NCBI GenBank assembly: GCA_019359695.1
Contig: JAHHGV010000021.1
Location: 1 to 64,000 of the forward strand
Reading direction: 5' to 3'
Origin: Brasilonema angustatum HA4187-MV1
GTDB taxonomy: Bacteria; Cyanobacteriota; Cyanobacteriia; Cyanobacteriales; Nostocaceae
Length of the DNA stretch: 64,000 nt
Of this stretch, positions 14,799-64,000 are shown in pieces. The notes beneath the pieces were generated by a model. The model was not told where the DNA came from. It saw only the letters and a list, made by a program, of their open reading frames with translations, and searched no databases. The position numbers and the translations under genes were made by a program. Positions within the stretch are counted from its first letter, which is position 1; each line of letters opens with the position of its first letter.

Positions 14799-15059
14799 CT
14801 AACGAATCAAGTCGTAGGAAATATCTGTCTTAGAAGGAATGTTTGTGTTGCGATCAATTTCCTCGAAGATTGTATTCACAATCCAGTTGAGCAAGTTGAT
14901 CACACCTTGATAGCCGATGGTAGAGTAGCGGTGCAGATGGTGACGATCCATGATGGGGTAGCCAATTCTCACCAGAGGAGTCTTGGTGTCGCGCCACAGG
15001 TACTTACCGTAAGTGTTACCGATGAGCAAGTCTACAGGTTCGGTGAACAACAGAGAACT
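14799..15059 (-). CDS. nifK: nifK, 3' fragment of the interrupted nitrogenase beta-subunit gene
   Basis: This encodes only the last roughly 86 residues of the MoFe protein beta subunit. Reading from SSLLFTEPVDLLIGN, it continues through NTYGKYLWRDTKTP, RIGYPIMDRHHLHRYSTIGY and NWIVNTIFEEIDRNTN to the usual C-terminal ISYDLIR. A complete NifK is about 510 residues. Upstream of SLLFTEP the frame stays open but reads LRFILPDNKRIS, where NifK should read KDLWHMR or similar. The homology therefore breaks at about 15051-15062. The P-cluster cysteines and the rest of the gene are absent from the window. The gene has no start of its own here and should be restored by excision of the element. Confidence 0.92.
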   Translation of the reverse strand, partial: SSLLFTEPVDLLIGNTYGKYLWRDTKTPLVRIGYPIMDRHHLHRYSTIGYQGVINLLNWIVNTIFEEIDRNTNIPSKTDISYDLIR

Positions 15060-15098
15060 AATGCGCTTGTTATCAGGTAATATAAATCTAAGGCTTCT
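15051..15098. other. Left junction/attachment site of the nifK element
   Basis: NifK similarity ends within 15051-15062 and the recombinase start codon lies at 15099 or 15111. The recombination core must therefore fall within or next to this short stretch. The partner copy of the core would be at the other nifK junction, beyond position 64,000, so I cannot define the direct repeat. Confidence 0.6.
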
Positions 15099-16661
15099 AT
15101 GGTGTGGTGTATGGACGTTTGGGGTTATGCACGGGTTTCGACTAGTGAACAGGCTGAGGATGAAGGTGCGTTAATTAAACAAATGCGTCGGTTGCGTAGT
15201 GCTGGAGCAACGCATATATATTACGATGTCGAAAGTCGTACCAGTGATAAGCGTAAAGGGCTTTTACAGTTGATTGAAGATATTAACGCATCTGCACCGG
15301 GCAAAGTGTCAAAGCTGCTATTTATTCGGATAGACCGTTTAACATCTTCATCAATGACCTTTTATCGTTTAATGGATGCATTAAAAAAGAAAGGTATACA
15401 GCCATATGCCCTAGATGAGCCATTCGACTTATCGAGTATTGGCGGTGAGTTAACAATCGATGTGAGACTGGCAGCATCTAAGTATGAGGTGAAAATGCTG
15501 GCAATGCGAGTCAAAAAAGAACGTGACACCCGCAAAGCAAATAAAAAACCCCACTGGAATGCACCTTTGGGGTATGTGGTTGAGGGTGACAAGTATAAAC
15601 GAGATCACCGTCCGTGTGTTTGTTTGATTGAGGGTAAAGAAGAGTTAACGCGATCGCACCTGATGAGGGTAGTATTTAATACTTTTTTAGCAGTAAGTAC
15701 GGTGTCTCAAACAGCGAGAGTACTGCATGATATTTTTGGTATTCAAGCAAACGCAGTTTCAAAAGCTACTGATACCAGGATGAACCTCTTGGAAGAAGAA
15801 GAGGAAATCACGCTAGAGAATGTCAACAAACCTCGTGGAGGTGCGTTGAATCTTCGTTATCCGCACACTGGCTTAAAATGGTCAGTTTCTGGGTTACGCT
15901 CTATCCTCGTCAATCCCGTTTACGCAGGAGGGACACTGTATAACACTGTTGTTCGTTCAAATGGACATCGCAAACCCTTCGATGAATGGGAAGTAACATG
16001 GGGAACCCACGAAGATGAAGCCATTATCACCCGTGAGGAACACGAACGCATCAAGGCAATGATTCGCGAGAATCGGAACAACCGATGGGCTACCGAACAG
16101 AAATATCTCAACCCATTCGCCAACTTAGTTAAATGCGCTCATTGTGGGGCTGCTTATAGTCGGCAGTGTAAGAAATTGGTTAAACGCAAAGGTTTTGTCC
16201 GTCATCACTATCAATGCAGTTTTTATCGGACTGGTGCTTGTCATAACGGACGCATGATTTCTTCAGATGAATTAGAAAAACAAGTGATTAATCATCTAGT
16301 TCATCAGGCTGAACGTTTAGCTGGACTGGTAGAACAAGAGGTTGATTCTTCAGAGGAATCCCCAGAGGTAAAGATACTTCGGGCGTCTTTAAATACTTTA
16401 GAAGCATTGCCATCAAATCCAGCAATTGAAAAAGCCAAAGAAGATATTCGGATGCAGATAGCAACGGCGATCGCTACCTTGGACAACGCATCCAAACAAT
16501 ACCTAATAGCTAAAGAGCGGATTGTTATGGCATTTTCAAACGAGAGATATTGGCAAGGGCTGGAGCAGCAGGACAAGCAAGCTCTACTTAAAGGATGTGT
16601 AAAGAAGATAGTGGTAGATGGCAACTTGGTTAGTGCGATTGAACTGCTGTTCATGTACTAA
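15099..16661 (+). CDS. Large serine recombinase, XisF-like element excisase
   Basis: A site-specific recombinase of 520 residues (516 from the alternative ATG at 15111), close to the size I recall for XisF, which excises the Anabaena fdxN element. The resolvase domain has the nucleophile in GYARVSTSEQ (Ser14, or Ser10 from the second ATG) and the arginine motif LLFIRIDRLTSSS. The recombinase domain includes HWNAPLGYVV and SGLRSILVNPVYAGG. A zinc ribbon with CAHCGAAYSRQC and CSFYRTGAC follows, then a coiled-coil C-terminus. It is divergent from the nifK fragment and starts only about 40-50 bases from the junction, so its promoter must overlap the attachment site or the nifK coding sequence. 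It is probably needed to restore nifK during heterocyst development. Confidence 0.92.
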   Translation: MVWCMDVWGYARVSTSEQAEDEGALIKQMRRLRSAGATHIYYDVESRTSDKRKGLLQLIEDINASAPGKVSKLLFIRIDRLTSSSMTFYRLMDALKKKGIQPYALDEPFDLSSIGGELTIDVRLAASKYEVKMLAMRVKKERDTRKANKKPHWNAPLGYVVEGDKYKRDHRPCVCLIEGKEELTRSHLMRVVFNTFLAVSTVSQTARVLHDIFGIQANAVSKATDTRMNLLEEEEEITLENVNKPRGGALNLRYPHTGLKWSVSGLRSILVNPVYAGGTLYNTVVRSNGHRKPFDEWEVTWGTHEDEAIITREEHERIKAMIRENRNNRWATEQKYLNPFANLVKCAHCGAAYSRQCKKLVKRKGFVRHHYQCSFYRTGACHNGRMISSDELEKQVINHLVHQAERLAGLVEQEVDSSEESPEVKILRASLNTLEALPSNPAIEKAKEDIRMQIATAIATLDNASKQYLIAKERIVMAFSNERYWQGLEQQDKQALLKGCVKKIVVDGNLVSAIELLFMY

Positions 16662-16754
16662 GTACAGAATTTCATAAAACCGTAATGAATTGAATGACCT
16701 ACTGGTAAAGCTTGAAGAGGTTCAATACGCTACGAACTTGTGAAATCTTGTACT
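16661..16754. terminator. Inverted repeat between convergent genes
   Basis: AGTACAGAATTTCATAA (16661-16677) pairs with TTGTGAAATCTTGTACT (16738-16754), 14 of 17 positions matching. It spans the gap between the recombinase stop and the convergent hypothetical gene. It could be a bidirectional terminator or a small element relic. Confidence 0.35.
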
Positions 16755-17100
16755 AAGCAGCCTTTTTAGATTTACGCGCGAGAGTGCTTTTTCCCTGTGA
16801 TTGAACATAATAAACTTGAGTATTTTGTAGTTCACGTTGTTCAAATTCAACCACTGTTCGGGCGACCAATTCAGCTAGTGTTTCACGTCGTTTCATTTGA
16901 AGCGGCTCCATCATTACTTTTAAAATAGCTGGGAATTCAAAAGTTTCTGTTAGCTGTGAGCTTTTTGTTTTGACATAGGAGTTTAGGCTGCAAATTTGCA
17001 AGGTCGTTTTACTTAGGCTTGTGTCACCAAAAGTTGGTGCATTTGTCCTAAGTTCTCCGATATTATAAGAGACATTTATAGACGGCGCTACGATTTGCAA
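16753..17100 (-). CDS. Hypothetical protein next to the recombinase
   Basis: Up to 115 residues if the TTG at 17100 is used; the inner ATG codons at residues 63-64 would give only about 52. The C-terminal part is charged and helical (MKRRETLAELVARTVVEFEQREL) and ends in a basic tail (STLARKSKKAA) that would suit nucleic-acid binding. The position beside the recombinase invites comparison with excision accessory factors (XisH and XisI accompany XisF), but I see no resemblance to either. Function unknown; it may be a fragment. Confidence 0.45.
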   Translation of the reverse strand: MQIVAPSINVSYNIGELRTNAPTFGDTSLSKTTLQICSLNSYVKTKSSQLTETFEFPAILKVMMEPLQMKRRETLAELVARTVVEFEQRELQNTQVYYVQSQGKSTLARKSKKAA

Positions 17101-18310
17101 ATCCCGTTTTCATCTTCAATCAAATCATTCTAAACCTTTCATTGAATATCATAATCAAAAAGGTTATAGTTATGAAATTAAACGTGAATGTCTAGAAATG
17201 TAGGTTAATGGCTCTGGCTTCCAGGGGAAACGTATCTTGTCAATAAGAACGCTTCAATCTCAATAAATTCCAAATTAATCGCATTAACGTCTGCTGATTG
17301 AGAATTTTTTAAGCGATTGCCTACGGCAGAGCTACGCTTAACGCATAATTCATATTGTGATTCAGCAACGCCCGAAATACCCCATCTTCTCCAAGCCTTC
17401 CTACATAAGCCTTACGCAAAGTGTTTGTTGAAAGTAATGGGACTTGATAAATTTCTAAGCTCAAACATAGCCAGACTTAACTCTGTGAGGGGCAAATACG
17501 TCGATGTGAGTGTTTAGCCAACGCACAAAGCTAAATTCTACACCAGTACGGAATGCTTCTAAATGCTTCAGTAAAAGTCTGTAAAGGTTTTTATATCATG
17601 TCCGGTTAAAGACTTATCATAAAAACTGCACCTTTGCAGGGAGCAGGGGGAAAGAGAATTTCAGACTTTTGCACAGATCTGCTTTTTTTATAACTAATCA
17701 ACCGGACATGATATTAGCATCAGTGTCAGCCTATAACAGCCGTCTGATTGTGCCCTGTTCCCAGCAACAGGATCTCCAAAATTCCGAGTTCACTCGGTGT
17801 GTCGGGTAAGGTTCGAGCGTCACCGCTCTCCCCTCCCCTAAGAACGCAGCATGAGACTTTCGCACTCACTGCGCTCAAGCCTTACTTCAAGCGAGTTGAC
17901 ATTGATTTTTCACACTCACCTGCGTTGCCTCAAGCCCTTATTGTTACGAAAAAAGACAAAAAAATCGTGTCACTTTCTTGCGCTGCTTTTAACTAAGTCT
18001 GGGCTTATACGGTTAGGTGCAAGATCTGAGATAATAATGTAGTATAATTATTAATATAAAATTGTGCTGTGCTTCATCCTACCTACGAATAGTCAAATTT
18101 CGTAGTTTTTTGATGTGAATGTGTAAAAATCTACTACTGTTTTTACACTAGTGTTTTGTTTGGCTTCCTGAAAGTGAAAGAAAATAAGATGAAATAGGAG
18201 CGATTGCCTTTCTTATGATTAAGAAATCGGTAATAATGTTGATTTCATACCAGAGCAGTTAAAATACTCAGTAATATACTTATAAGAGTTGGATAAACAC
18301 GAACCAAACT
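17101..18310. other. Gene-poor spacer between recombination module and biosynthetic genes
   Basis: About 1.2 kb without a convincing gene. Open frames here (for example 17317-17517 and 17748-18042) have low-complexity or repeat-like translations and no ribosome sites. The stretch contains a small inverted-repeat element (17593-17714). Confidence 0.55.
17593..17714. mobile_element. Miniature inverted-repeat element (MITE-like), about 122 bp
   Basis: ATATCATGTCCGGTT (17593-17607) and its exact complement AACCGGACATGATAT (17700-17714) bound a 92-base non-coding core. A perfect 15-bp terminal inverted repeat with no coding capacity fits a MITE mobilised by a transposase elsewhere. No clear target-site duplication is visible. 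Confidence 0.6.
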
Positions 18311-18532
18311 CATATCTGTATGTCAATAGTAAGATGATCTAAAACTTAGATATCGTACAAATAGAGAGCGTACAAAGAGTTAAGCAAAGGAGTTTGTTAT
18401 GGATTTCTTAACAAAACCAACAAAAATCACATCTGTATGCTGATAGTAAGATGATCTAAAACTTAGATATCGTATAATTAGAGAGCGTACAAAGAGTTGA
18501 GCAAAGGAGTTTGTTATGGATTTCTTGACTAA
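18311..18532 (+). repeat. Tandem duplication of a leader region including the start codon
   Basis: Two copies offset by 117 bases: 18311-18415 and 18428-18532. Each contains TAAGATGATCTAAAACTTAG, GAGAGCGTACAAAGAGTT, the ribosome site AAAGGAG and ATGGATTTCTT. The first copy's start (18399) opens a 14-codon frame (MDFLTKPTKITSVC) ending at TGA 18441-18443. The second copy leads into the real gene at 18516. The copies differ at only a few positions, so the duplication is recent. Confidence 0.85.
18473..18478 (+). promoter_or_regulatory. Candidate -10 box for the diiron/PKS gene cluster
   Basis: The second leader copy reads TATAAT at 18473-18478, 38 bases before the start codon. The equivalent place in the first copy reads TACAAA (18356-18361). 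No good -35 hexamer lies at the standard distance, so this is a candidate only. Confidence 0.35.
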
Positions 18533-19196
18533 TTTACTTCGTATAGCCTGTTCAGGAGGAGCTGCGTATTTTCAGTCTCGCAGTATACGAGATCCAATGA
18601 CTCGACTGTCTACTTTAATAGAGGCTCAACAAGTAGAATACGGGGCCGCTTATTTTATTGAAGCACTCACCAAAAGAGCAACTTTGGAAGGAGATACTTG
18701 GCTTGCGAAAAATCTCACTCTCCATGCTATGGATGAGATGAATCATGGCAAAATATTTGACCATGCTCTCAAACAGTTAACACAAGAAAAGCTAGAAAGA
18801 CCCCGCAACCCATTCTACACAGTTTACTTAGAAGGCTACGCACAACAAGACTTACAGCCTGAAACTGTAGAATGGACTGTGTTTATGGGTAGTATGTACG
18901 TCTTAGAGCGGGATTCCAGCCGCGAGTTTCTTCATATGGCTAATGCTATACCAGAAGAGAATCGTTGTCTAATTAACCTCAAAAAAGGAATGTTGAAAAT
19001 TGCTGAGGATGAGAAGTATCATGCTGCCTATCTCTATGAAGGAATGCAACGTCGAATGGGTTCTGCTGTGGATAAGTGGGTAGATGAATGGCGTACCCGC
19101 CAAGTCAAGGCTATTTTAGCAATCACAGGCGATTTCATTCTCGGTTCAGAACGACCTGCTATGCCTCAAGATGGTTCTCTCTTTTCTTGGTCTTAG
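18516..19196 (+). CDS. Ferritin-like diiron protein, paralogue 1
   Basis: A 226-residue all-helical protein with a complete six-ligand diiron pattern: Glu41, E74-M-N-H77, Glu131 and E166-K-Y-H169. The N-terminus (LLRIACSGGAAYFQSRSIRDPMTR) and the C-terminal PQDGSLFSW are shared with the two later paralogues. The ferritin-like superfamily of this size includes MiaE-type hydroxylases and aldehyde-deformylating oxygenase, so an O2-dependent tailoring step on the polyketide is plausible (inference). Its ribosome site AAAGGAG is six bases before the ATG. It heads the biosynthetic gene series. I do not recognise a characterised orthologue. Confidence 0.75.
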   Translation: MDFLTNLLRIACSGGAAYFQSRSIRDPMTRLSTLIEAQQVEYGAAYFIEALTKRATLEGDTWLAKNLTLHAMDEMNHGKIFDHALKQLTQEKLERPRNPFYTVYLEGYAQQDLQPETVEWTVFMGSMYVLERDSSREFLHMANAIPEENRCLINLKKGMLKIAEDEKYHAAYLYEGMQRRMGSAVDKWVDEWRTRQVKAILAITGDFILGSERPAMPQDGSLFSWS

Positions 19197-19210
19197 GGCG
19201 TGTTTTCAAA

Positions 19211-19423
19211 TTCAGTAGCTCACAAACTTTTCTAAGCTTGCGCAATAATAAGGCTTTAAGCGTATATAAAAGTCCAAACAGCACTTATTTGAGAGCAATC
19301 GCTTTGAGTTCTCAAGCGCGATATCGCCTGAAGTCCTGAATTAGAGAGACTTTTTTCATGCCCATGTACTTTGCTGAGATGTCCATGTGACAAGGCTTAT
19401 AAAAAACTTTGTAAGCTACTGAA
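19211..19423. repeat. Imperfect inverted repeats flanking a gene-free stretch
   Basis: TTCAGTAGCTCACAAACTTTT (arm 19211-19231) pairs with the arm at 19403-19423, about 19 of 21 positions matching. The 170 bases between hold no gene. It may be a decayed MITE between the first diiron gene and the lipase-like gene; the gap 19197-19538 contains nothing else recognisable. Confidence 0.45.
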
Positions 19424-19538: not shown

Positions 19539-21032
19539 ATGAGTCTAGCATCAATTAATCTGCCTAAGGTGTTACGAGGAGGTTTCGATTTTAATGAAGC
19601 TATCTTACTGTCAAAAATGTCTAAGCGAGCATTCAAAATTTATCCAGATAGCTTCGGCAGAATTGAAGGTCAAGATATTAGAGATACTTACAATGCTTCA
19701 TACAAACATGAAGATTGGGAATTTATCTATGGTATTCACAACTTCATTAGAAATTTACGAGGATTTATTCTCAAGAAAAAAAATTCAAATCACTATGCGA
19801 TCGTCTTTCGCGGAAGTGTTGTAACCCAGCAACAATCTATAGACTTAACAAACTTTTTATCTGACTTTAACTCAAACTTAATTAATTATGGAGAAATCGG
19901 AAATATATATGGAAAACCGATCAAAGTTGTGGAGGGAACTTATCTAGATTATGAATCTATCAAACAAGAGATTTTACTCTTTTTTAAAGTCATTGCTTTA
20001 GCAAAAATTGAAGCAAAGGATTTCTTTTTTATCAACAATGAACAAATAAGTTTTGAGCAAAAAATTGCAATGGCAGTTGCTTTAGCAGCAGCTAGTGGTA
20101 TTGTTTTTGGAGAAGAGTTTGAACAAATACTTTTGGGGCTAATCTCAAACTATATTAATAATTTTCAGACAGTAACTGTAAATGAGCTTGATAATTTAAA
20201 AATCCAACCTGTAGATGATTCTTCAAATCAGATTAATTTTCAAGAATTAATATCTAAAATTAAGCATCTTCAGTCTGCAAATCTTATTATAGATGGCAGG
20301 AGTCAAAGTATCATAGGTAGAAAGGCAGAACATATTAATATTTATGTAACCGGTCATAGTCAAGCAGCTTGCATTGCAAATTTTTGTTCTCTTTCATTAA
20401 AGCAGCATTTAAATGACTTTCCAAAATTATCTTATCGACTTAAATGTTACACTATAGGTGGCATTAAAGTTGGCAATCAAGCATTTGCTGATTTTTACAA
20501 TGATCTTGTTGGAATTAGATATAGTTACAGGATAGAAAACGTACTAGATCTCCAGAAAAATATGCCATTTGGTACTTTGTACCCCCTCAATCTTTTCGTA
20601 AGTAATGGATTTACTAGGGGTGAATATCATTTAGAAGATTATGCTTTTGTGGGAATTCCACATTATGTAATAGGTTTCGGTATTCAAAACTTCAAAGTTG
20701 ATTTTACTGGAGCCTTGACTTTCATGTTAGGAATGCCGTTCCCTCATGGTTTTGATACTTATATTCAACTACTTGAGGAACAACAGGCAGGGATCAGAAT
20801 GTTGATGCAACCAATCAATGGGATCTTGTCTGACTTTTTACAGGATTATCTTCGAGAGCAAGAGGTAGATATTGTGGAAAATGTAAAGAATTATACTCAT
20901 TTTGTACAAGAAGATTTATCATTAGAAATTGATGACCTTAAAAGATTTTTGGACGAAAAGATTGGAAATCAACTAAAGAGCGAAAATCAAAATAGCAACA
21001 AGATTACTAAAAACCCTAGCAGCAATACATAG
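19539..21032 (+). CDS. Class 3 lipase-like alpha/beta hydrolase
   Basis: A 497-residue protein. The Lipase_3-like features are an N-terminal substrate-lid region with YAIVFRGS, the nucleophile elbow YVTGHSQAA (Ser274), and LKCYTIGGIKVGNQAFADFYN with RIENVLDLQKNMP, which supplies a likely catalytic Asp. A hydrophobic helix around residues 178-195 and a C-terminal charged tail lie outside the core. There is no signal peptide. The ribosome site TAAGGAG is 11 bases upstream of the ATG. In the cluster it might hydrolyse an ester, release or trim the product, or act on membrane lipids (all inference). Its AT-rich codon use differs slightly from the PKS genes. Confidence 0.7.
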   Translation: MSLASINLPKVLRGGFDFNEAILLSKMSKRAFKIYPDSFGRIEGQDIRDTYNASYKHEDWEFIYGIHNFIRNLRGFILKKKNSNHYAIVFRGSVVTQQQSIDLTNFLSDFNSNLINYGEIGNIYGKPIKVVEGTYLDYESIKQEILLFFKVIALAKIEAKDFFFINNEQISFEQKIAMAVALAAASGIVFGEEFEQILLGLISNYINNFQTVTVNELDNLKIQPVDDSSNQINFQELISKIKHLQSANLIIDGRSQSIIGRKAEHINIYVTGHSQAACIANFCSLSLKQHLNDFPKLSYRLKCYTIGGIKVGNQAFADFYNDLVGIRYSYRIENVLDLQKNMPFGTLYPLNLFVSNGFTRGEYHLEDYAFVGIPHYVIGFGIQNFKVDFTGALTFMLGMPFPHGFDTYIQLLEEQQAGIRMLMQPINGILSDFLQDYLREQEVDIVENVKNYTHFVQEDLSLEIDDLKRFLDEKIGNQLKSENQNSNKITKNPSSNT

Positions 21033-21084: not shown

Positions 21085-22152
21085 ATGAAAAAGTCGTTGC
21101 TATCAATTCTTGCCTGTCCTCGATGTGAAGGAGAAATAGAACTTAAACCAGGAGAAACTATTAAAAATGGTGAGGTAATTTCTGGCTCTTTACAATGTTT
21201 GAACTGCGGACTTGGATTGCCTATAATTGAGGGAGTTCCTTGTATGCTATTGCCTGAACAACAACAACAAGAATTAGAGGGATTTACATCCCAATGGCAG
21301 TATCGATTTTCGGGAAAATTTGAAGGGGCAAGTTCACTTTATGGCTCAAATCCAGAGGATAGAATAGAGCACATTTTAGCTAAATTTGTCTGTCCCATAC
21401 AGCCAAATGAATGGATATTAGATGCTGGGTGCGGTTCGGCTGAAATGACCTTTGCTATGGCGCAGAAAAATCCTCAAGCACAGATAGTTGGACTCGAATT
21501 AAGCAAAGCAGTACGTTTAGCGGCTCGTCAAGCAGGTAGTGTAGCTAATATCCATTTTGTCCAAGGGGATGTGATGAATCCTCCATTAAAAAAAACAACT
21601 TTTCGGAAAATTTATTCTATGGGGGTTTTACATCACACTAGCAATACTAAAACTGCCTTTGAACATGTAGCTTCTTTACTTTCAAATTATGGTGATATGG
21701 TCATTTGGCTATACCCTGATCCGCTAGAATCTCCTGCTAACATTCCTTATTACGCGGTTCGGGATGTGGTGTTTATGGGAATGGGGCATAAAATTCCATC
21801 TGAACTACGCTTTTGGTCGATCAGAACGTATTCATTGGCGATATTGCCTCTGATTATTGTGGCGAGATTTTTTTGGAAATACTTTTTTGATTTTGGTCAA
21901 AAAATGGATTGGTTTTTATTACAAAATCATAGTTTTGAAGAAATAAACGAAGCTACTTCATTTTGGGAAAAATTAGATTTATTAGAAACTTATCAAACAA
22001 TTTGTTTTTGGTTATTTGATGATATTACTCCTGAATTTCAGTTTCGTCATAAAAAGCAAGAAGTAATCCAATGGTTTCAAGAGAATAAATTTGACGAAGT
22101 TCATGCTGATAATATTGGGACTTATTGGGGTAAGCGCTTGGTAAATAATTAA
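21085..22152 (+). CDS. SAM methyltransferase with N-terminal Trm112-like zinc ribbon
   Basis: The 355-residue protein starts with a zinc-ribbon segment: Cys11 and Cys14 (CPRC), Cys38 and Cys41 (CLNC), then GLPIIEGVPCMLLP as in Trm112/YbaR-type domains. The Rossmann methyltransferase follows with motif I LDAGCGSAEMTF near residue 112, LELSKAV, and MGVLHHTSN. A hydrophobic segment (about residues 250-270) may contact a membrane or a hydrophobic substrate. It is probably a tailoring O- or C-methyltransferase of the cluster; the substrate is unknown. It begins 52 bases after the lipase-like gene, likely in one transcript. Confidence 0.75.
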   Translation: MKKSLLSILACPRCEGEIELKPGETIKNGEVISGSLQCLNCGLGLPIIEGVPCMLLPEQQQQELEGFTSQWQYRFSGKFEGASSLYGSNPEDRIEHILAKFVCPIQPNEWILDAGCGSAEMTFAMAQKNPQAQIVGLELSKAVRLAARQAGSVANIHFVQGDVMNPPLKKTTFRKIYSMGVLHHTSNTKTAFEHVASLLSNYGDMVIWLYPDPLESPANIPYYAVRDVVFMGMGHKIPSELRFWSIRTYSLAILPLIIVARFFWKYFFDFGQKMDWFLLQNHSFEEINEATSFWEKLDLLETYQTICFWLFDDITPEFQFRHKKQEVIQWFQENKFDEVHADNIGTYWGKRLVNN

Positions 22153-22355: not shown

Positions 22356-23216
22356 ATGCAAAACCAGGTTAAAAGGCTACGCTATTTCAACATTTTTCTA
22401 GATTCTATTGAGCAGAAAGACGACGATCTGATAACAGCCTTCGGGCATCATGTCCACTGGGGTTATTGGAAGTCTACCAGTTTAGCTAATAATTCCGTTG
22501 ACGACTTTAGAAAAGCAGCTGAAGAACTATCTTGTCAAATGTCTACAGCAGCAGGGGTAGCAGATAATCAAAGTGTGCTTGATGTCGGCTGCGGGTTTGG
22601 AGGGACTATCGCCAGCATCAATGAAAGATTTAAGCAGATGAATTTGGTAGGTGTGAATATTGATGATCGGCAAATAGCTAGAGCAAGACAACAAGTGAAA
22701 GCAGCCGAAACAAATCAGGTGGAATTTGTCGAAGCTGATGCCTGCAAGCTACCATTTGCAGATGCTTCTTTTGATGTAGTTTTAGCAGTTGAATGTATCT
22801 TTCACTTTCCGAGTCGGGAACTCTTTTTTAAAGAAGCTAGGCGAGTGCTGCGTCCCGGAGGTAGGCTGACAATTTGTGACTTTATCCCTGTAGATATGTT
22901 GATGCCTGGTTTGGGTATATTGGACTTCTTTATGGGAGATTTTCTCACCCAAACTTATGGACAAAGTAATCTCCGCTACAACTACAGCTTAAGTGACTAC
23001 GAAAAACTAGCTCAGAAAACAGGGTTTCTTCTGTCACAACAACGAGATATCACGGTTAATACCTTACCGAGCTATGAAATTACTCGCCAGTTAATGCGGA
23101 AAGCAACACCCCCAGGTATAGGAGCAGAAATCGATAATTTGGTTAACCAAGCAATGGAATGGGTAAGCCGCCAAGGTTTATTGCGCTACATGATTTTTTC
23201 ATTTCAGATTGCTTAG
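22356..23216 (+). CDS. Class I SAM methyltransferase (type 11, small-molecule)
   Basis: The 286-residue protein resembles natural-product O-methyltransferases of the type 11 group. It has HVHWGYW early, motif I VLDVGCGFGGTIA near residue 73, VNIDDRQIARA, EFVEADACKLPFADASFD and ECIFHFPSRELFFKEARRVLRPGG. It is probably a polyketide tailoring enzyme acting on a hydroxyl or carboxyl group (inference). It follows the previous methyltransferase after about 200 bases and is followed at 17 bases by the second diiron gene. Confidence 0.8.
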   Translation: MQNQVKRLRYFNIFLDSIEQKDDDLITAFGHHVHWGYWKSTSLANNSVDDFRKAAEELSCQMSTAAGVADNQSVLDVGCGFGGTIASINERFKQMNLVGVNIDDRQIARARQQVKAAETNQVEFVEADACKLPFADASFDVVLAVECIFHFPSRELFFKEARRVLRPGGRLTICDFIPVDMLMPGLGILDFFMGDFLTQTYGQSNLRYNYSLSDYEKLAQKTGFLLSQQRDITVNTLPSYEITRQLMRKATPPGIGAEIDNLVNQAMEWVSRQGLLRYMIFSFQIA

Positions 23217-23233
23217 TCGAAATTAAAACGCAG

Positions 23234-33861: not shown

Positions 33862-33873
33862 ACAAGGGCAAAG

Positions 33874-54023: not shown

Positions 54024-57000
54024 AGCCCAATTTAGACCAAATCGATTCAGCTGCATTGATGAAAAAGGCATTGATTGAACTGAGGGAAATGAAAGCTAAA
54101 CTCAGCGAAATCGAAGCCGCACAAACCGAACCGATTGCGATTGTGGGCATGAGTTGCCGATTTCCTGGGGGAGCTAATAGTCCAGAAGGATTTTGGCAGT
54201 TATTGCGGCAGGGAGTAGACGCAATTAAAGAAGTACCTGCTGATCGGTGGGATATTAATGCTTACTACGATCCCGATCCTAATGCTGGCGGCAAAATGTA
54301 CGTGCGTGAGGCTGGCTTCATTGATCGAGTAGACGAATTCGATGCCCAATTTTTTGGGATTTCTCCCCGCGAAGTTGCTAGAATAGACCCCCAACAAAGG
54401 CTGCTGTTAGAGGTTTGTTGGGAGGCATTAGAACAAGGGGCGATCGCGCCAAAACAATTAAAAGGCAGCCAAACAGGAATATTTATGGGGCTATGTACTG
54501 ATGACTATGCCCAACTTACGGTTAATGCTGGCGATCGCCCAAGCCCCGATTCAGATGCTTACTCGTATTTAGGCATCACTCGTAGTATTGCTGTTGGTCG
54601 AATTGCTTACTTGCTAGGTCTGCAAGGCCCAGCAATTCAGTTAGATACCGCTTGTTCTAGTTCTCTGGTTGGTGTTCATCTCGCCTGTCAAAGCTTGCGA
54701 AATCGAGAATGCAATTTAGCTTTAGCAGGGGGAGTTAACCTCATGCTCTCACCCTTAAGCACAATCGGGCTATGTCGCTTAAAAGCTCTGGCTCCAGACG
54801 GACGCTGCAAAACTTTTGATGCAGCAGCTAACGGTATGGCTAGGGGTGAAGGGTGTGGGGTGGTGGTGCTCAAACGCCTCTCGGATGCCATTAAAGAACG
54901 CGATCTGATTTTGGCAACGATTCAAGGGTCAGCTATTAATCATGATGGATCGAGTAGCGGACTGACTGTTCCCAATCAATTAGCCCAAATTGCCTTAATT
55001 CGGGAAGCTTTAGCTGGTGCTAAAGTGCAACCAGCAGAGATTAGTTATTTGGAAGCTCATGGTACTGGTACTGCTTTAGGAGATCCAATCGAGTTGGATG
55101 CTTTACGGGATGTGTTTGGCGAAGCTCGCCAGCTTGAACAACCTTTAATCGTTGGTTCAGTTAAAACTAATATCGGTCACTTAGAAGCCGCCGCCGGAAT
55201 TGCTGGTTTAATTAAAGTTATTTTGGCTTTGCAACATGAAGAAATTCCCCCACATTTACATTTCCAGCAACTCAATCCTCATCTTAAGTGGGATAAATTA
55301 CCAATATTAATTCCCACTCAAACAATCCCTTGGTCGAAAGGTGAAAAGCCTAGGTTAGCAGGATTAAGTTCTTTTGGTTTGAGCGGTACTAACGCTCATA
55401 TTGTCTTAGCTGAAGCACCAAAGGTTGAAAGGCGACGCCAGACGCCTCAACGGGAGCCAGCGTTGAAGGAGGGTTTCCCTCCGCAGGCGTCTGGCGTTGG
55501 GGAACCCCCGCACGGCGCTGGCTCAAATTCCGCTTCTCTACAAGAGCGTCCGTTACATATCTTAACTTTATCGGCAAAAACTCCCCAAGCATTGCAGCAA
55601 TTAACTGAAGAATATGATCGCTTTTTGCAAAGGTATGCGGATTTACCTATAGGAGATATTTGCTTTACTGCTAATACAGGGCGATCTCATTTTGAGTACC
55701 GCTATAGTTTAATTGCCGCTTCTACTCAAGAGTTGCAACAACAATTAGCTGTTAAAGCAGCAGAAATATTATCAGATAAATTGGAGCCTAAATTATCTGA
55801 TAATATTGCTTTTTTGTTCACTGGACAAGGTTCTCAATATGTTGGTATGGGTAAAGAACTTTACGATACTCAGCCCACATTTCGCCAAGCTCTAGAGCAA
55901 TGTGCAGAAATTTTACAACCCTTACTAGATGTGCCATTGCTAGAAGTTCTTTATCCTACTTCTGAGAAAAATGCTAAATTAATTGACCAAACTGCTTATA
56001 CTCAACCTGCTTTATTTGCTTTGGAATATGCCCTCTTTAAGTTATGGGAATCTTGGGGAATTAAACCAAGTTGGGTAATCGGTCATAGTGTCGGTGAGTA
56101 TGTTGCTGCTACTGTAGCCGGGGTATTTAGTTTAGCTGATGGTTTGCGATTGATTGCTTGCAGATCAAGATTAATGCAAGAGTTACCACTTGAGGGAGGA
56201 ATGGTGGTAGTTTTTGCTAGTGAGGATCAGGTAGCAAATGCGATCACTCCTTATGGTAATTCAGTTGCGATTGCAGCGATTAATGGTTCTGAAAATATAG
56301 TTATTTCCGGGAAAACCGAATTTCTAACTAAAATCGTTGCTTCTCTAGAAACTGACGGGATTAGAACCCAACCTTTAAACGTTTACCATGCTTTTCATTC
56401 TCCATTAATGACTCCAATGGTGTCAGAGTTTCGGGAATTTGCTGCTCAAATTTTATTTTATCCTCCTCAAGTTAGGTTAGTTTCTAATGTAACTGGAAAC
56501 GAAATTGGTGACGAAATCGCTACCCCAGAATATTGGTGTAACCACATCCAAAAACCTGTTAAATTTGCAGCAGGTATAGCGACTTTGGCGCGGGAAGGCA
56601 TTGACATTTTTATAGAAATTGGAGCAAAATCAACTCTCTTAGGAATGGCTCGTCACTGTTTACCAGAAAATACCGGATTGTGGCTGCCAAGTTTGCGTTC
56701 GGGTGTAGGAGAATGGCAGCAAATTCTTGATAGTTTAGGTATTTTATATATTAATGGAATAACTGTAGATTGGCATGACTTTGATCAAAATTATCAAAGG
56801 CAACATATTTCACTACCTACCTATCCTTGGCAACGAAAACGATTCTGGGCTGCTCATAACCAGGCGCATAAAAGTTCAAATTCACAAATTACCGAATTTT
56901 TAACTAAAGGTGATGCAGAAAAACTAGCTAATACTCTGTATCAAACCGGAAAATTTACCAGTCAAGAACAGCCATTAATCGGTGAGATTATTAAAGTTTT

Positions 57001-58672
57001 AATTGAGCAACATCAACGAGAAATTCCCAAATTCAAGTTTGTCTCTTACCTTCTGACTACCCCAGTAATCCTCAGGGATAGCCTGCAACCGCAATTAGAT
57101 GCTTTAATGGCTCAACCAGATTTAGAAGTGTATTGGCAGGTTTTAGAGCAGTTGGAAGTTTTGACAACTGATTATGTAGTACGAGCTTTTTACGATTTGG
57201 GATGGAACTTTGAGGTAGGAAAGCGATTTTTGCCAATTCAAATAGCAGAAGAATTAGGAATAGTCGAGCGCCATCAAAGATTATTGCTCAGATTGTTAGA
57301 AATGTTATCTGAAATTAATGTCGTTGTCTCAGTTAATCGAGAATGGGAAGTTGTCCAAAAGCCAGAAATTCCTCAACCTCAAAAATTGTACCAGAGTTTA
57401 TTAGAAAAAAGTCCAAATGCTGAAGCAGAATTAACAGTTATAGAACGGTGCGGTTCTAATTTAGTGGCAGTCTTGCGGGGGGAATGCGAACCTTTACAAA
57501 GTTTATTTCCTCAAGCAGATTTAAGTATTGCTACTAAACTGTACCAGGATGCACCTTTTTCTCAGGTCATGAATACCTCGTTGCAAAAAACTCTCAGTGC
57601 AGCTTTAGCACAATTTCCTCAAGAATATGGAATTCGTGTCCTAGAAATTGGAGCGGGAACAGGGGGAACTACAGCTTATCTCCTTCCCCATCTAGATCCT
57701 GAACGCACTGAATACATATTTACTGATGTCAGTGCTTTATTTACAACTAAAGCTGCTCAAAGATTTCATGATTATTCTTTTGTTAAGTATCGAGTTCTAG
57801 ATATTGAAAAAGATCCAATCTCTCAGGGATTTTATCAAAAAAATTATCATATTATTGTGGCAGCTAATGTTTTACATGCCACTAGCAATTTACGTGAAAC
57901 TGTAGAAAAAATAGATCAATTATTAGCACCTGGGGGAATTCTAATTTTATTAGAAACAACAGCTAGACAAAGGTGGATAGATCTATTTGCTGGATTGACC
58001 GGAGGTTGGTGGAAATTCACTGATTTTGAATTGCGTCCAAATAGTCCATTATTATCAGGAGATAAATGGCAGGAGTTGTTGACAGAAACTGGTTTTGAAA
58101 CTACAGCGATTATTAAACCACTACTCAACAATCAGCCAGTAATTGCTCAACCAGCGATAATTTTAGCTCAAAGTCCAATGGTAGAGATGGAGTTATCTAA
58201 TAACTTAGAAAATCAGGAGCGATCGCCAAATGAGCAATCGTCAGCTAAACTACCAGGAATTAGGGAGAGATTGGCGGCAGTATTACCAGTAGAGGCTAAG
58301 GGGTTATTAATTGCTTATCTTCAAGAAGAGGTGAGATTAGTTTTAGGAATGGAGCGATCGCTTCTGCCAGATCCCCAACAGGGCTTTTTCGCTCTGGGTT
58401 TAGATTCCTTGACAGCAGTAGAATTAAAAAATAGATTAGAAACCGCTCTGAAATTGCCCCTACCTGGTACTTTAGCTTTTGATTTTCCTAATATTCAAGT
58501 TCTGTCTGAATATTTAGCTAAAGAACTTTTGCAGAGCGAAACTGGATTCGGTCAAAAATTAGATTCAGATCCAATAACTGTGGCAGAAGTTCCTCAAATA
58601 AATGAAGATGAATTACAAGCATTAATCGACCAGGAAGTAGCTGGAATTGAAAAGTTATTAAAGGGAATATGA
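54020..58672 (+). CDS. Type I PKS module without reductive domains: KS-AT-MT-ACP
   Basis: A 1550-residue module. KS has Cys212 (DTACSSS). The KS-AT linker carries a translated palindromic repeat (about 471-504). AT is intact with GHSVGE (Ser690) and HAFH at 790-793. There is no DH, ER or KR. C-MT has motif I from 1207 and His1286/Glu1312. The ACP serine is Ser1463 (GLDSLTAVEL, slightly unlike the GMDSLTS of its neighbours). It should leave an alpha-methylated (possibly gem-dimethyl) beta-ketone in the chain (inference). It is translationally coupled to both neighbours through ATGA overlaps. Confidence 0.94.
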   Translation: MKPNLDQIDSAALMKKALIELREMKAKLSEIEAAQTEPIAIVGMSCRFPGGANSPEGFWQLLRQGVDAIKEVPADRWDINAYYDPDPNAGGKMYVREAGFIDRVDEFDAQFFGISPREVARIDPQQRLLLEVCWEALEQGAIAPKQLKGSQTGIFMGLCTDDYAQLTVNAGDRPSPDSDAYSYLGITRSIAVGRIAYLLGLQGPAIQLDTACSSSLVGVHLACQSLRNRECNLALAGGVNLMLSPLSTIGLCRLKALAPDGRCKTFDAAANGMARGEGCGVVVLKRLSDAIKERDLILATIQGSAINHDGSSSGLTVPNQLAQIALIREALAGAKVQPAEISYLEAHGTGTALGDPIELDALRDVFGEARQLEQPLIVGSVKTNIGHLEAAAGIAGLIKVILALQHEEIPPHLHFQQLNPHLKWDKLPILIPTQTIPWSKGEKPRLAGLSSFGLSGTNAHIVLAEAPKVERRRQTPQREPALKEGFPPQASGVGEPPHGAGSNSASLQERPLHILTLSAKTPQALQQLTEEYDRFLQRYADLPIGDICFTANTGRSHFEYRYSLIAASTQELQQQLAVKAAEILSDKLEPKLSDNIAFLFTGQGSQYVGMGKELYDTQPTFRQALEQCAEILQPLLDVPLLEVLYPTSEKNAKLIDQTAYTQPALFALEYALFKLWESWGIKPSWVIGHSVGEYVAATVAGVFSLADGLRLIACRSRLMQELPLEGGMVVVFASEDQVANAITPYGNSVAIAAINGSENIVISGKTEFLTKIVASLETDGIRTQPLNVYHAFHSPLMTPMVSEFREFAAQILFYPPQVRLVSNVTGNEIGDEIATPEYWCNHIQKPVKFAAGIATLAREGIDIFIEIGAKSTLLGMARHCLPENTGLWLPSLRSGVGEWQQILDSLGILYINGITVDWHDFDQNYQRQHISLPTYPWQRKRFWAAHNQAHKSSNSQITEFLTKGDAEKLANTLYQTGKFTSQEQPLIGEIIKVLIEQHQREIPKFKFVSYLLTTPVILRDSLQPQLDALMAQPDLEVYWQVLEQLEVLTTDYVVRAFYDLGWNFEVGKRFLPIQIAEELGIVERHQRLLLRLLEMLSEINVVVSVNREWEVVQKPEIPQPQKLYQSLLEKSPNAEAELTVIERCGSNLVAVLRGECEPLQSLFPQADLSIATKLYQDAPFSQVMNTSLQKTLSAALAQFPQEYGIRVLEIGAGTGGTTAYLLPHLDPERTEYIFTDVSALFTTKAAQRFHDYSFVKYRVLDIEKDPISQGFYQKNYHIIVAANVLHATSNLRETVEKIDQLLAPGGILILLETTARQRWIDLFAGLTGGWWKFTDFELRPNSPLLSGDKWQELLTETGFETTAIIKPLLNNQPVIAQPAIILAQSPMVEMELSNNLENQERSPNEQSSAKLPGIRERLAAVLPVEAKGLLIAYLQEEVRLVLGMERSLLPDPQQGFFALGLDSLTAVELKNRLETALKLPLPGTLAFDFPNIQVLSEYLAKELLQSETGFGQKLDSDPITVAEVPQINEDELQALIDQEVAGIEKLLKGI
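55432..55529 (+). repeat. Palindromic repeat inserted in frame in the KS-AT linker of PKS 5
   Basis: It shares GACGCCAGACGCCTCAACGG and the end CACGGCGCTGGCTCAAATT with the PKS 2 copy but has a longer centre (98 versus 86 bases, a difference of exactly four codons). Nested pairings include GAGCCAGCG with CGCTGGCTC and ACGCCAGACG with CGTCTGGCGT. The translation is RRQTPQREP...HGAGSN. Confidence 0.8.
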
Positions 58673-61600
58673 GCAACGACTCTTACACTAACGAGTATCT
58701 ATCTTCGTCTCACCGCTTATTATTAGCACTGAAAGAAGCCCGAAAAAAACTCGAAACAGTAGAAGCTGAAAAAAATGAGCCGATAGCGATCATCGGTATG
58801 GGGTGTCGGTTTCCAGGAGCCAACAACCTAGATGAGTTTTGGCAATTGCTGAAAAATGGTCGAGAGGCTATTACAGAAGTTCCTTTATCTCGTTGGGACA
58901 TCAATGCTTATTACCATCCCGATCCAAAAGTACCTGGAAAAATTTATACCCGCTCAGGGGGATTTCTGGATGGGATAGATTGCTTCGATCCCTTATTTTT
59001 TGGGATTTCTCCTCGCGAAGCGATCGCTCTCGATCCATCCCATCGTTTGCTGTTAGAAGTAAGTTGGGAAGCATTGGAAAATGCAGCACAAATCAAACCG
59101 CGACTGGCAAATTCAGCCACAGGTGTTTTTATCGGCATCAATGCGAATGATTATGCTGAACTATTAAAAGATTCAGGAGAGTTTAACCGTCAATCCAGCA
59201 ATACTTATGATATTACTGGTACGCCAACTTACGCGGCGGCTGGACGTTTATCTTACACTTTGGGTTTAACTGGGCCGAGTATTGCTATTAATACAGCTTG
59301 TTCTTCTTCTTTAGTAGCTGTTCACCTAGCTTGTCAAAGTTTGCGTAATCGTGAATGTAACATGGCTTTAGCTGGTGGCGTTAATGTGATCTTGTCACCA
59401 GAAAGCACGATCGCTTTATGTCGATCGCGAATGTTAGCACCGGACGGACGAAGCAAAACCTTTGATGCGGCGGCTGATGGAATGGTGCGATCAGAAGGCT
59501 GCGGGATTGTAGTCCTGAAGCGGTTATCTGATGCTGTAGCCTCTAAAGATAATATTATAGGGGTAATTTTGGGTTCCGCAATTAATCAAGATGGTCCTAG
59601 TAGCGGTTTTACAGTTCCCAACGGATCGGCACAACAAAGCTTAATTCGTCAAACTTTAGCAATGGCAAAAGTCAAGCCATCCGAAGTAAATTATATCGAA
59701 GCTCACGGTACGGGAACTGCTTTAGGCGATCCAATCGAAGTTAATGCTTTAGGCGCAGTATTTGCTGAAGGGCGATCAACAGATTCGCCTTTATTAATTG
59801 GTTCAGTTAAAACTAACATTGGTCACGCAGAAGCAGCTGCAGGTATTGCTGGATTAATTAAAGTAGTGTTGGGATTGCAACACCAAGAAATTCCCCCACA
59901 CTTGAATTTTCAACAACCCAACCCTCACATCAACTGGAAACAAATACCCGTCAAAGTTACCACTCAAACCACACCTTGGGACAGCAATCAGCAAAAACAA
60001 ATCGCTGGAGTAAATTCCTTTGGTGCTAGCGGGACTAATGCCCATATAATTTTAGCTGCGGCCCCAGAATTAGACTCCGTTAAACCAGAAGTTGATCGCC
60101 CTATTCATATTGTTAACCTTTCAGCTAAAACGCCTACTGCTTTAGCAGAATTAACCCAACGTTATATCGCCCACTTAGATACTCACACACACCAAAATCT
60201 AGCCGATATTTGCTATAGTGCTAACACTGGACGCGATCACTTAGAATATCGTTTAAGTATAGTTGCCGATACTGTTAATGAACTCCGTCGCCAGTTGTGC
60301 GATTTTGGAGCAGGAACAGAAGCTAATCCCACATTAATAAGCGGAATTGTTCAAGAAAAAACACCACAGAAAATTGTTTTTCTTTTCACCGGACAAGGTT
60401 CTCAATATGTGGAAATGGGTAAACAGCTTTACCTAACCCAACCAACTTTTCGGGCTACTCTTGACGCTATTACTGAACTTTTTCAACCATATCTTGGGGT
60501 ATCACTGCTAGAAATTATCGATTCAGATGGGGAAAAACTACAGCAAACTGTTTATGCCCAACCTGCAATTTTTGCCTTGGAATATGCCTTATATAAATTA
60601 TGGCAATCTTGGGGTATCGTACCAACAGCAGTAATGGGACATAGCGTAGGCGAATATGTGGCAGCTTGTGTGGCAGGAGTTTTCAGTTTAGCAGATGCAG
60701 TCCAGCTAATTGCAACTAGGGCGCGACTGATGCATTCTATTGAAACTGCTGGGAAAATGGTCGCAGTTTGGGCAACGGTGGAGTTTATAGAAAGTGCGAT
60801 CGCACAGGATGCAGAATTGCTAGGAATTGCTGCTATTAACGGAACAGAGAATTTGGTAATTTCTGGAGAAGCATCAGCTATTGATCGAATTGTTTCCAAT
60901 CTGAATTCTCAGGAAATTAAAACCAAACCTTTATCAGTTTCCCAAGCTTTTCACTCTCCGATGATGCAACCTATCCTAGCTGATTTTCGACAGATTGCTG
61001 AAAAAATTAGCTACTTCCGTCCCCAATTACCTTTAATTACTAATGTCAGTGGTACTTGGGCGCAAGCAGAGATAGCTACTCCAGAATATTGGGTAGACCA
61101 TATTCGCCGCCCAGTACAATTTGCTCGTAGTCTAGAAACTTTATTGCAAGCAGATTATCAAATCTTTTTAGAAATCAGTTCCCAACCAATATTAATTGGG
61201 ATGGCACAGTTAAGCTATCCTCAAACTAATCTTCAATGGTATGCCAGTCTCAAACCTCAAAAAGCAGATTGGCAGCAAATGTTAGAAACTTTAGCAGGTT
61301 TATATATTAATGGCATACCTGTAGATTGGTCGGGATTTGACCGAGATTATCCCCGCTATCACTTGCCTTTACCTACCTATCCTTGGCAACAGCAACGCTA
61401 TTGGTTAGAAACTACGCAAAAATCTCAATTTTTATCGGTTCACAATAATGGTGCTCGTACCGTTCATCCTTTACTGGGTAGTCGATTAAATTTACCTTTA
61501 AAAGAAATTGTATTTACTTCTCAAATAAGTACGAATTCTCCAACTTTTTTAAGAGAACATCAGATTTATGAACAAGTAGTATTTCCAGCTACAGCTTATA

Positions 61601-64000
61601 TTGAAATGGCTTTAGCTGCTGGTAGTGAAATTCTGAAAACTGATGATTTATTGGTGGAAAATTTTTCCATTCAACAAGCTTTGATTTTACCCAAAGCAGA
61701 ATTTATCAAACTGCATTTAGTATTCACATCAGATAATCAAACTTATTCATTTCAAATTTTTAGCCAAAGTGCAGAATCCAATGATTTGGACGATTGGCTG
61801 CTTCATGCTACTGGAAAATTACAAAAAATATCAACATCTGAACCCCGCTCAACCATTAATATAAGCTCTTGGTTAACTCAGCCTCTAGAAGAAATATCTT
61901 TAACAGAATACTATCAAATTTTTAGCAAAAAAGAAATAGATTTAGGTGCAAGTTTTCACGCTCTGAAAAAACTAGGGCGATCCTCAGATGGTGTTAGAGG
62001 TGAAGTGCAATTACCAGATGCTTTAATTATTGAAGCAGGAGACTACAAGCTGCACCCAATATTACTTGATGCTTGTTTACAAACTTTAGGAGCAGCTTTT
62101 GATAATGACAGCCAAAAACATACATATTTACAAGTAGGGTTAGACAGACTCAAAATTTATGGCAGTCCAGGATTTAGGCTGTATAGTCAAGTGAAAATTC
62201 ATCCAATTGTTGACTTCAATCAGCCCCTGCGTAATGCTGATATAGATATTTTTGATCCAGAGGGAAGGTTAGTAGTTAAGATAGAAGGTTTGCAGTTAAT
62301 GCGAACCAGTCACCAAGCATTAATGATGCAAATCAAGGAAGATTGGCAAAATTGGATTTATCAATTAGATTGGCGTTCTCAGATCCGATTTACTCAAGCA
62401 CAACTCTTACCTAATTATTTACTCACCCCGGCTGAAATCGGTGTGCAAGTAGAATTAACCAAAATCAGCATTCCCAACAATCTAAAAGCTTACCAAAAAG
62501 CACTAATTGAATTAGAAGCTTTGGCACTCGAATATTTACTAGATGCCTTTGCGAAAATGGGTTGGTTGTGGCAAATTGGTCAGCAGTTTTCAATAGCAGA
62601 AATTGCCCAAAAATTAGGCATAGTTAACCAACATCGCCGTTTGCTAGATCGCCTGTTAGAAATATTGAGTATAGCCGGAGTATTGCAACAACAGGGAGAT
62701 GCCTGGAAAGTTGGTCAAATCCCGCCACAATCAAATCCAAAATTTTTACAACAAACTCTATTACAAGAACACCCGATTGCTGAAACTGAGTTAGCTTTTT
62801 TGCAGCGTTGTGGGGAGAAATTAGCCGAGGTACTCCAAGGACAAAGTGATCCGTTACAATTATTATTCCCCAACGGCGACTTTTCCGCAGCGACTAAATT
62901 TTATCAGCAGTCACCTGGGTCGATGTTAATGAATACCATCGCTCAAAAAGCGATCGCCATAGCTTTAGAAAAGTTACCGAGTTACCGAGGAGTGCGGATA
63001 CTAGAGATTGGGGCTGGTACTGGCGGTACGACGGCTTACATTTTACCCCTACTAAATCCCGCCCAAACTAAATATGTCTTCACCGATGTAGGAGCCGTTT
63101 TTACTTCACAAGCAGCACAAAAATTCCGTGATTATCCTTTCGTAGAATATCACGTATTAGACATCGAAATTGACCCCCAATCTCAAGGATTTATTCCTCA
63201 TCAGTACGACATAATTGTGGCAGCTAATGTCCTCCACGCTACTACCAATTTAACTGAAACTTTACAAAACGTCCACCAATTATTAGCGCCAGGAGGTTTA
63301 CTATTATTAATTGAAGGTAGTCAGCCAATGGGCTGGATCGATCTAACCTTTGGATTAACCGAGGGATGGTGGAAATTTACCGATTTAGATATAAGACCTA
63401 ACTATCCTTTGTTGAGTGCTGATCGCTGGATAGAATTGTTAGATAAAAATGGTTTTGAAGATGCTATTAATATTGTTTCCCAATTAAATGATCGCCAAAT
63501 TATGTCTCAGTCGGCGGTCATTATAGCCCGCTCAGAATCTCTGCCTATCTCCAGTCCTCAGAATTGGCTGATTTTTAGCGATGCAACAGGAGTAGGCGAT
63601 CAATTAGCCGCACAATTACAAGATCGGGGAGAAAAATATAACTTAGTCTTCCCAGGCACCAAATACCAACAAGTAACTGAAACCGCATTTCAGGTAGATC
63701 CAGCGAATCCAGCAGACTTCGAGCGATTGCTAGGAGATTTTAGTCAAAAGTATGGATCTTTAGGTGGAATTATTCACTGTTGGAGTTTAGATACAGCCAA
63801 CCGCCAAGAATTGACGGCGGTAAATATAGACAAAACTTTAGAACTAGGCTGTGGTAGCATTTTACATTTAGTTCAATCTCTGATTAAAGCTAACTTCGCT
63901 CAATCCCCTTCGCTTTGGTTAGTTACTAGAGGCACTCAATTAGTAGATCCCAACCAAACTAATATCGCGTTAACAGAATCGACTTTGTGGGGTTTGGGCA
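58669..64000 (+). CDS. Type I PKS module, 5' part: KS-AT-DH-MT-(KR?)
   Basis: An open frame from the ATG overlapping the previous stop to the window edge (1777 codons, incomplete). Docking helix (LLLALKEARKKLETVEAEKNE). KS has Cys211 (INTACSSS). AT has GHSVGE (Ser659) and QAFH at 759-762. DH has His964 in EHQIYEQVVFP and Asp1134. C-MT has motif I at about 1444-1454 and His1523/Glu1549. The last roughly 150 residues (from LPISSPQNWLIFSD to the edge) are the structural half of a KR domain, so a KR, with or without an ER, and an ACP should follow off the window. It continues the one-module-per-protein pattern. Confidence 0.92.
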   Translation, partial: MSNDSYTNEYLSSSHRLLLALKEARKKLETVEAEKNEPIAIIGMGCRFPGANNLDEFWQLLKNGREAITEVPLSRWDINAYYHPDPKVPGKIYTRSGGFLDGIDCFDPLFFGISPREAIALDPSHRLLLEVSWEALENAAQIKPRLANSATGVFIGINANDYAELLKDSGEFNRQSSNTYDITGTPTYAAAGRLSYTLGLTGPSIAINTACSSSLVAVHLACQSLRNRECNMALAGGVNVILSPESTIALCRSRMLAPDGRSKTFDAAADGMVRSEGCGIVVLKRLSDAVASKDNIIGVILGSAINQDGPSSGFTVPNGSAQQSLIRQTLAMAKVKPSEVNYIEAHGTGTALGDPIEVNALGAVFAEGRSTDSPLLIGSVKTNIGHAEAAAGIAGLIKVVLGLQHQEIPPHLNFQQPNPHINWKQIPVKVTTQTTPWDSNQQKQIAGVNSFGASGTNAHIILAAAPELDSVKPEVDRPIHIVNLSAKTPTALAELTQRYIAHLDTHTHQNLADICYSANTGRDHLEYRLSIVADTVNELRRQLCDFGAGTEANPTLISGIVQEKTPQKIVFLFTGQGSQYVEMGKQLYLTQPTFRATLDAITELFQPYLGVSLLEIIDSDGEKLQQTVYAQPAIFALEYALYKLWQSWGIVPTAVMGHSVGEYVAACVAGVFSLADAVQLIATRARLMHSIETAGKMVAVWATVEFIESAIAQDAELLGIAAINGTENLVISGEASAIDRIVSNLNSQEIKTKPLSVSQAFHSPMMQPILADFRQIAEKISYFRPQLPLITNVSGTWAQAEIATPEYWVDHIRRPVQFARSLETLLQADYQIFLEISSQPILIGMAQLSYPQTNLQWYASLKPQKADWQQMLETLAGLYINGIPVDWSGFDRDYPRYHLPLPTYPWQQQRYWLETTQKSQFLSVHNNGARTVHPLLGSRLNLPLKEIVFTSQISTNSPTFLREHQIYEQVVFPATAYIEMALAAGSEILKTDDLLVENFSIQQALILPKAEFIKLHLVFTSDNQTYSFQIFSQSAESNDLDDWLLHATGKLQKISTSEPRSTINISSWLTQPLEEISLTEYYQIFSKKEIDLGASFHALKKLGRSSDGVRGEVQLPDALIIEAGDYKLHPILLDACLQTLGAAFDNDSQKHTYLQVGLDRLKIYGSPGFRLYSQVKIHPIVDFNQPLRNADIDIFDPEGRLVVKIEGLQLMRTSHQALMMQIKEDWQNWIYQLDWRSQIRFTQAQLLPNYLLTPAEIGVQVELTKISIPNNLKAYQKALIELEALALEYLLDAFAKMGWLWQIGQQFSIAEIAQKLGIVNQHRRLLDRLLEILSIAGVLQQQGDAWKVGQIPPQSNPKFLQQTLLQEHPIAETELAFLQRCGEKLAEVLQGQSDPLQLLFPNGDFSAATKFYQQSPGSMLMNTIAQKAIAIALEKLPSYRGVRILEIGAGTGGTTAYILPLLNPAQTKYVFTDVGAVFTSQAAQKFRDYPFVEYHVLDIEIDPQSQGFIPHQYDIIVAANVLHATTNLTETLQNVHQLLAPGGLLLLIEGSQPMGWIDLTFGLTEGWWKFTDLDIRPNYPLLSADRWIELLDKNGFEDAINIVSQLNDRQIMSQSAVIIARSESLPISSPQNWLIFSDATGVGDQLAAQLQDRGEKYNLVFPGTKYQQVTETAFQVDPANPADFERLLGDFSQKYGSLGGIIHCWSLDTANRQELTAVNIDKTLELGCGSILHLVQSLIKANFAQSPSLWLVTRGTQLVDPNQTNIALTESTLWGLG

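Follow-up and report, generated by a model that had tools for sequence, protein, structure and literature searches.

A nifK interruption element of Brasilonema angustatum HA4187-MV1 with a GNAT-loaded polyketide synthase cluster as cargo

The nifK gene of Brasilonema angustatum HA4187-MV1 is split, and nearly all of the DNA between its two parts is a polyketide assembly line. We are confident that this DNA is best explained as a working nifK interruption element that carries a GNAT-loaded modular polyketide synthase (PKS) as cargo and that would be excised during heterocyst differentiation. As far as sequence can indicate, the case consists of colinear gene halves, recognisable ends, an intact recombinase, a frame that precise removal restores, and intact frames throughout the cluster. 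The element is of a known kind; its cargo is unexpected. Counting against a working element are a direct repeat of only 4 bp, the presence of a V-nitrogenase, the repeats in a spacer, and four of 32 comparable genomes in which the gene halves lie in opposite orientation.

The split gene and the ends of the element

The window, the 64,000-nucleotide stretch that we analysed, is C83:1-64,000 of a draft genome of 8.5 Mb in 98 contigs (features in Table 1). The 3' part of nifK matches the family profile TIGR01286 at residues 428-516 (C83:14,802-15,065, minus strand, E 8.5e-39), and its homology stops at the core, where the first-pass annotation had placed the loss (about 15,057). No 5' part occurs within the 64-kb window. 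It lies where that annotation predicted, to the right of position 64,000 on the same minus strand (C83:68,519-69,798; profile residues 1-431 at C83:68,518-69,795, E 1.2e-224), colinear with the 3' part and followed by nifD (TIGR01282) and a 296-aa open reading frame that we take to be nifH. The other flank of the 3' part holds two Oxidored_nitro frames of the nifE/nifN type, a frame with a FeMo-cofactor domain and a DUF269 frame; nifD and the other genes of the nif cluster all keep unbroken frames. When the flanks are joined in silico across the split point, at about codon 425 of 511, the precise removal restores a NifK of 511 aa that is identical to that of an intact congener (G092) at 494 of 511 positions; the rejoined nifK would read GCGTTCTCTG.

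Table 1. Features of the element and its nifK flank; positions are those of the window, and the C83 prefix marks positions on the whole contig
Feature	Position	Strand	Remark
nifK 3' part	14802..15058	minus	ends at core
4-bp core GAAC (GTTC in nifK sense)	15055..15058		second copy C83:68,519-68,522
left inverted-repeat end	15059..15083		partner directly inside C83:68,519
xis, 520-aa XisF-type large serine recombinase	15099..16661	plus	resolvase, recombinase and zinc-ribbon domains
conserved microprotein, 47 aa, unannotated	16753..16896	minus	convergent with xis
spacer	16900..18515		short dispersed repeats; local tandem duplication near right end
ferritin-like (rubrerythrin-domain) protein	18516..19196	plus
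class-3 lipase-like protein	19539..21032	plus
methyltransferase	21085..22152	plus
methyltransferase	22356..23216	plus
ferritin-like protein	23159..23920	plus
ferritin-like protein	23962..24687	plus
PKS 1	24784..33861	plus	AprA-type methyltransferase-GNAT-ACP loader, then KS-AT-DH-cMT-KR-ACP
PKS 2	33874..40350	plus	KS-AT (partial match only)-DH-cMT-KR-ACP
PKS 3	40368..46277	plus	KS-AT-cMT-KR-ACP
PKS 4	46338..54023	plus	KS-AT-DH-cMT-ER-KR-ACP
PKS 5	54020..58672	plus	KS-AT-cMT-ACP
PKS 6	58669..64000, on to C83:66,189	plus	KS-AT-DH-cMT-KR-ACP-TE
carbamoyltransferase	C83:66,241-67,977		beyond window
right end of element	C83:68,518		beyond window

The two GTTC cores bound an element of 53,464 bp. 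The short direct repeat that had been expected at both junctions is present, only 4 bp long in this copy and by itself at chance level, together with common inverted repeats. These imperfect repeats lie inside the cores (AATGCGCTT, then TATCAGG), and the codon and inverted repeats at both ends are the same as in 19 other closed elements; in a search that tolerated mismatches, the end motifs were recognisable in all 20 closed elements at the nifK site. The recombinase gene begins 40 bases beyond the core, close to one end of the element and within the 50 bases that the first-pass annotation had allowed, and its product scores 536 bits against the NCBIfam XisF model NF041201 (cut-off 375). Its identity to the XisF encoded on a plasmid of Trichormus variabilis is 28.9%. 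No relatives of the recombinase were found in phage records, nor in viral contigs scanned by six peptide patterns, and the plasmid search returned two distant XisF only.

There is a slight chance that the element is dead, with nifK permanently broken and nitrogen fixed, if at all, by the V-nitrogenase. The first-pass annotation had likewise considered a complete nifK elsewhere in the genome, with this copy a dead fragment, or a 5' part that was absent or out of line. A profile search of the whole assembly found no second Mo-nifK above the family cut-off, and the halves are colinear. The next-best match, on contig C78, is vnfK, preceded by vnfG and the end of vnfD; vnfK and vnfG exceed their cut-offs, so a V-nitrogenase is present and nitrogen could be fixed by a route that does not need nifK. 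Purifying selection nevertheless acts on both nifK halves and on xis (dN/dS 0.16 for the whole of nifK and 0.06 for its 3' part; 0.07-0.11 for xis against four relatives), the ends are intact, and so are the frames of nifD and the remaining nif cluster, all of which argues against a dead element.

The polyketide cargo

The cluster occupies 18,516-67,977, about 93% of the element, and comprises three ferritin-like genes, a lipase-like gene, two methyltransferase genes, six PKS genes with six KS domains, and a carbamoyltransferase gene. The plus-strand biosynthetic genes noted earlier are present from 18,516 onward. All six PKS frames are open; PKS 6 starts at 58,669, where the mechanical list of open reading frames had 60,295, and stays open as far as C83:66,186. 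The GNAT-loaded PKS proposed at the outset is borne out by the loading module, whose GNAT domain matches those of CurA (2ree, E 2.7e-57) and GphF (6mfc, E 1.6e-39) and whose methyltransferase matches AprA MT1 (6b39, E 9e-185). PKS 1 has the methyltransferase-GNAT-ACP loader in common with the AprA/CurA/GphF-type systems, although the cluster is a different one. Two details of the modules may be recorded: PKS 3 gave no match to the KS cysteine pattern used, and the AT model matched PKS 2 only in part.

Of the 388 genomes of the order, 20 have relatives of the loader, our own among them. The nearest cluster is that of Calothrix rhizosoleniae SC01, where all 13 genes have relatives (50-71% identity) on one contig in rearranged order, one of the 13 being cut by the contig end. 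This strain also has a split nifK, and its PKS cluster may lie in the element, a point that contig breaks conceal; no overlap of 14 or more bases was found among its contig ends. A small pathway is encoded in the arm of its element (L106, L117), comprising aromatic lyase, AMP-binding ligase, ThDP enzyme, KAS III and DAHP synthase.

One could suppose that the assembler joined a nifK element to an unrelated chromosomal PKS cluster. The assembly is a draft in 98 contigs, the left spacer has short repeats, and no relative of the right arm was seen among the other elements fetched. Such a chimera is very improbable, slightly more so than a dead element. The dispersed repeats of the spacer are short, up to about 145 bp in their copies in the rest of the genome (40 of 180 candidates scored), so that a misjoin in the spacer is unlikely; repeats of the right arm in the genome stay below 50 bp. 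Two other elements of this kind also contain assembly lines: that of Calothrix brevissima NIES-22, on an 8.5 Mb contig, and that of the JL34 Nostoc metagenome-assembled genome (MAG), on a single contig.

Elements at the same site in other genomes

Elements of this kind have been described. Hilton 2016 (PMC4874684) reported eight nifK elements with XisF-like recombinases, in two variants and of highly variable content, and an average element length of 41.5 kb over all genes. As in our element, nifK is split in these, and the xisF-like recombinase lies inside, antisense to nifK and at its 3' end; the parts of that paper on which we draw mention neither PKS or NRPS cargo nor a small partner gene. 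Set against those eight, we find nifK split at this codon in 32 of 145 genomes of the family, our own included (29 by plain match of the 5' part and three with a further break); in the genus sample of seven genomes, three are split and four intact. The 3' part is present in all 32 split genomes. The halves are colinear on one contig in 18, on one contig in opposite orientation in four, and on different contigs in ten. The four opposite cases (G003, G088, G123, G132) may be true inversions or assembly errors; seven opposite-orientation cases over all genes are reported in the parts of Hilton 2016 used here (PMC4874684).

Altogether 35 elements are known at the site, and the survey of cargo took in 30, all but those of G003, G088, G123, G132 and G141: 20 closed elements (18 of them in the family sample, the other two reached through named relatives) and the contigs of ten partial ones. 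When their flanks are joined in silico, 18 of the 20 closed elements yield a NifK that is 511-512 aa long; G083 and G140 have a second nifK interruption upstream, and their joined frames are 395 and 358 aa. A recombinase is found in all 30 elements (72-89% identical). The closed elements span 4,189-115,787 bp and carry unrelated cargo. The first-pass annotation had proposed that retention of the PKS is tied to precise excision, an idea that this variety leads us to reject: from one element to the next the cargo differs, and the ends, the recombinase and a small gene alone recur. It is the ends and the recombinase, with probably the small gene as well, that nitrogen fixation ties down, and not the cargo. 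A 696-aa frame near the 5' end is common to the elements of G115, G076, G126, G030 and G138, and may be the EF-G paralogue known from the nifK elements of PCC 7103 and PCC 7102 (Hilton 2016, PMC4874684, in the parts used here).

Multimodular PKS or NRPS lines occur in four of the 30 elements: our own with its six KS domains; that of JL34 (100 kb; six KS and eight condensation domains); that of NIES-22 (116 kb; 11 condensation domains); and the partial element of Hassallia byssoidea VB512170, whose match to the NRPS query shares 78% identity with the one in NIES-22. Related NRPS clusters lie in nifK elements of two genera, G108 (C1:7,833,080-7,882,247) and G112 (L159-L161), whose recombinases belong to separate clades, as though the cargo had moved between elements; from the host genus we considered hassallidin as their product, an assumption that we do not put forward as a claim. 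The 20 closed elements hold 31 condensation or KS domains where about four were expected, and three clusters where 0.4-1.0 were expected (P 0.008-0.08 across the cluster sizes assumed). Since our own genome was chosen for having a cluster, and three of the genome totals may be lower bounds, the enrichment of assembly lines in nifK elements is suggestive at best. In the open-licence papers searched, supplementary files apart, we found no account of assembly lines inside such elements; the portions consulted of a study of Anabaena 90 describe excision elements as long as 80 kb, among them one that contains the remnant of a prophage (PMC3542288).

Our nifK is closest to that of congeners (94%, against 89% for JL34), whereas our xis is closest to that of JL34 (89%, against 82-83%). 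This suggests that the element arrived sideways. In the recombinase tree the two group together with support of 90/86, short of the strict mark, and the nifK tree lacks this grouping.

A microprotein beside the recombinase and the meaning of the element

A small protein is linked to the recombinase gene. One of 35-66 aa is encoded in all 20 closed elements (the 35-aa copy, in G070, is cut by a stop). Its pattern is M-x(1-3)-ETLAELVARTVIEFE, followed by a tail that is mostly basic. In the ORF screen of these elements the microprotein and xis, with frames that overlap xis, were the only universal genes. Among the partial elements it was present in the fetched contigs of six and absent from those of four. 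It is coding: pairwise comparison gives 881, 136 and 1,920 differences at the first, second and third codon positions (p 5e-5). When the 145 genomes were searched with a profile, E was < 1e-10 in all 32 split genomes and in three of the 113 others; of these three, G097 and G135 have either nifK fragments or an incomplete genome. The link is imperfect, as one match (G019) lies beside a different recombinase and those in G109 and G118 are on unplaced contigs. We read 20 loci outside nifK elements, a set that leaves aside three loci in G141, G118 and G109 as well as G097 and G135. At 14 of the 20 there is a full-length recombinase relative, 27-53% identical; at ten, a diverged microprotein is directly adjacent and convergent to an XisF-family recombinase, at two a recombinase remnant adjoins, and at four the fetched stretch holds no recombinase. 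At two loci (L221, L231), both adjoining nifS and nifU, the diverged microprotein lies beside, and convergent to, a recombinase of 52-53% identity; from these neighbours we presume that this is the place of the known fdxN element.

Its conservation and position make the microprotein a candidate excision directionality factor. There is a little under an even chance that it instead regulates xis, acts as a leader peptide or is a selfish passenger. It has no credible family match in Pfam, stands away from xis in several elements, and is the gene found at the four outside loci with no recombinase in reach. Against such roles, it is in every closed element, is universal together with xis alone, and recurs beside recombinases of 38-53% identity, and there is a precedent in SprB, the 58-aa protein of phage SPbeta, found by the same logic (PMC4191935, as far as that account was consulted). 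According to the same account, SPbeta interrupts spsM of Bacillus subtilis, and a large serine recombinase and the small protein restore the gene by developmentally timed excision, as we infer here. It also differs, being a phage excised in the spore mother cell with a bacteriocin cargo that includes the antimicrobial gene sunA, whereas the cargo here is a 49-kb assembly line. We propose that the microprotein may be the missing second component, as SprB is in SPbeta. The fdxN element likewise has an XisF-family recombinase. Its partners XisH and XisI, which may set the direction of XisF according to the sections of Hilton 2016 used here (PMC4874684), were not seen in our element in scans that used models other than their own. 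Excision of nifD and fdxN elements has been confirmed by RNA-Seq, in the part of the report used (PMC5987646).

In the mechanism that we favour, nifK would be split in vegetative cells at the codon given above. During heterocyst differentiation the recombinase would recombine the ends across the GTTC core, restoring nifK and releasing the element as a 53,464-bp circle, and the microprotein would set the direction, excision rather than integration. A broader and more tentative reading, which we think somewhat less likely than its opposite, is that XisF-family elements of heterocystous cyanobacteria are a two-gene switch of a recombinase and a directionality factor of about 45 aa, the nifK copy serving as a developmental gate for PKS and NRPS islands cut from a terminally differentiated cell. 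Since nearly the whole element is an assembly line, the pathway may be cut from one cell type in development. It would be limited to vegetative cells only if excision occurs and the freed circle disappears or falls silent, and the circle could instead persist.

If this is true, a programmed and cell-type-specific deletion of genomic DNA would take a natural-product pathway with it, and the cyanobacterial clusters counted in genome mining include DNA that may be excised in differentiated cells. The microprotein would also be a testable candidate for a question that Hilton et al. leave open in the sections we draw on, the direction of XisF recombination.
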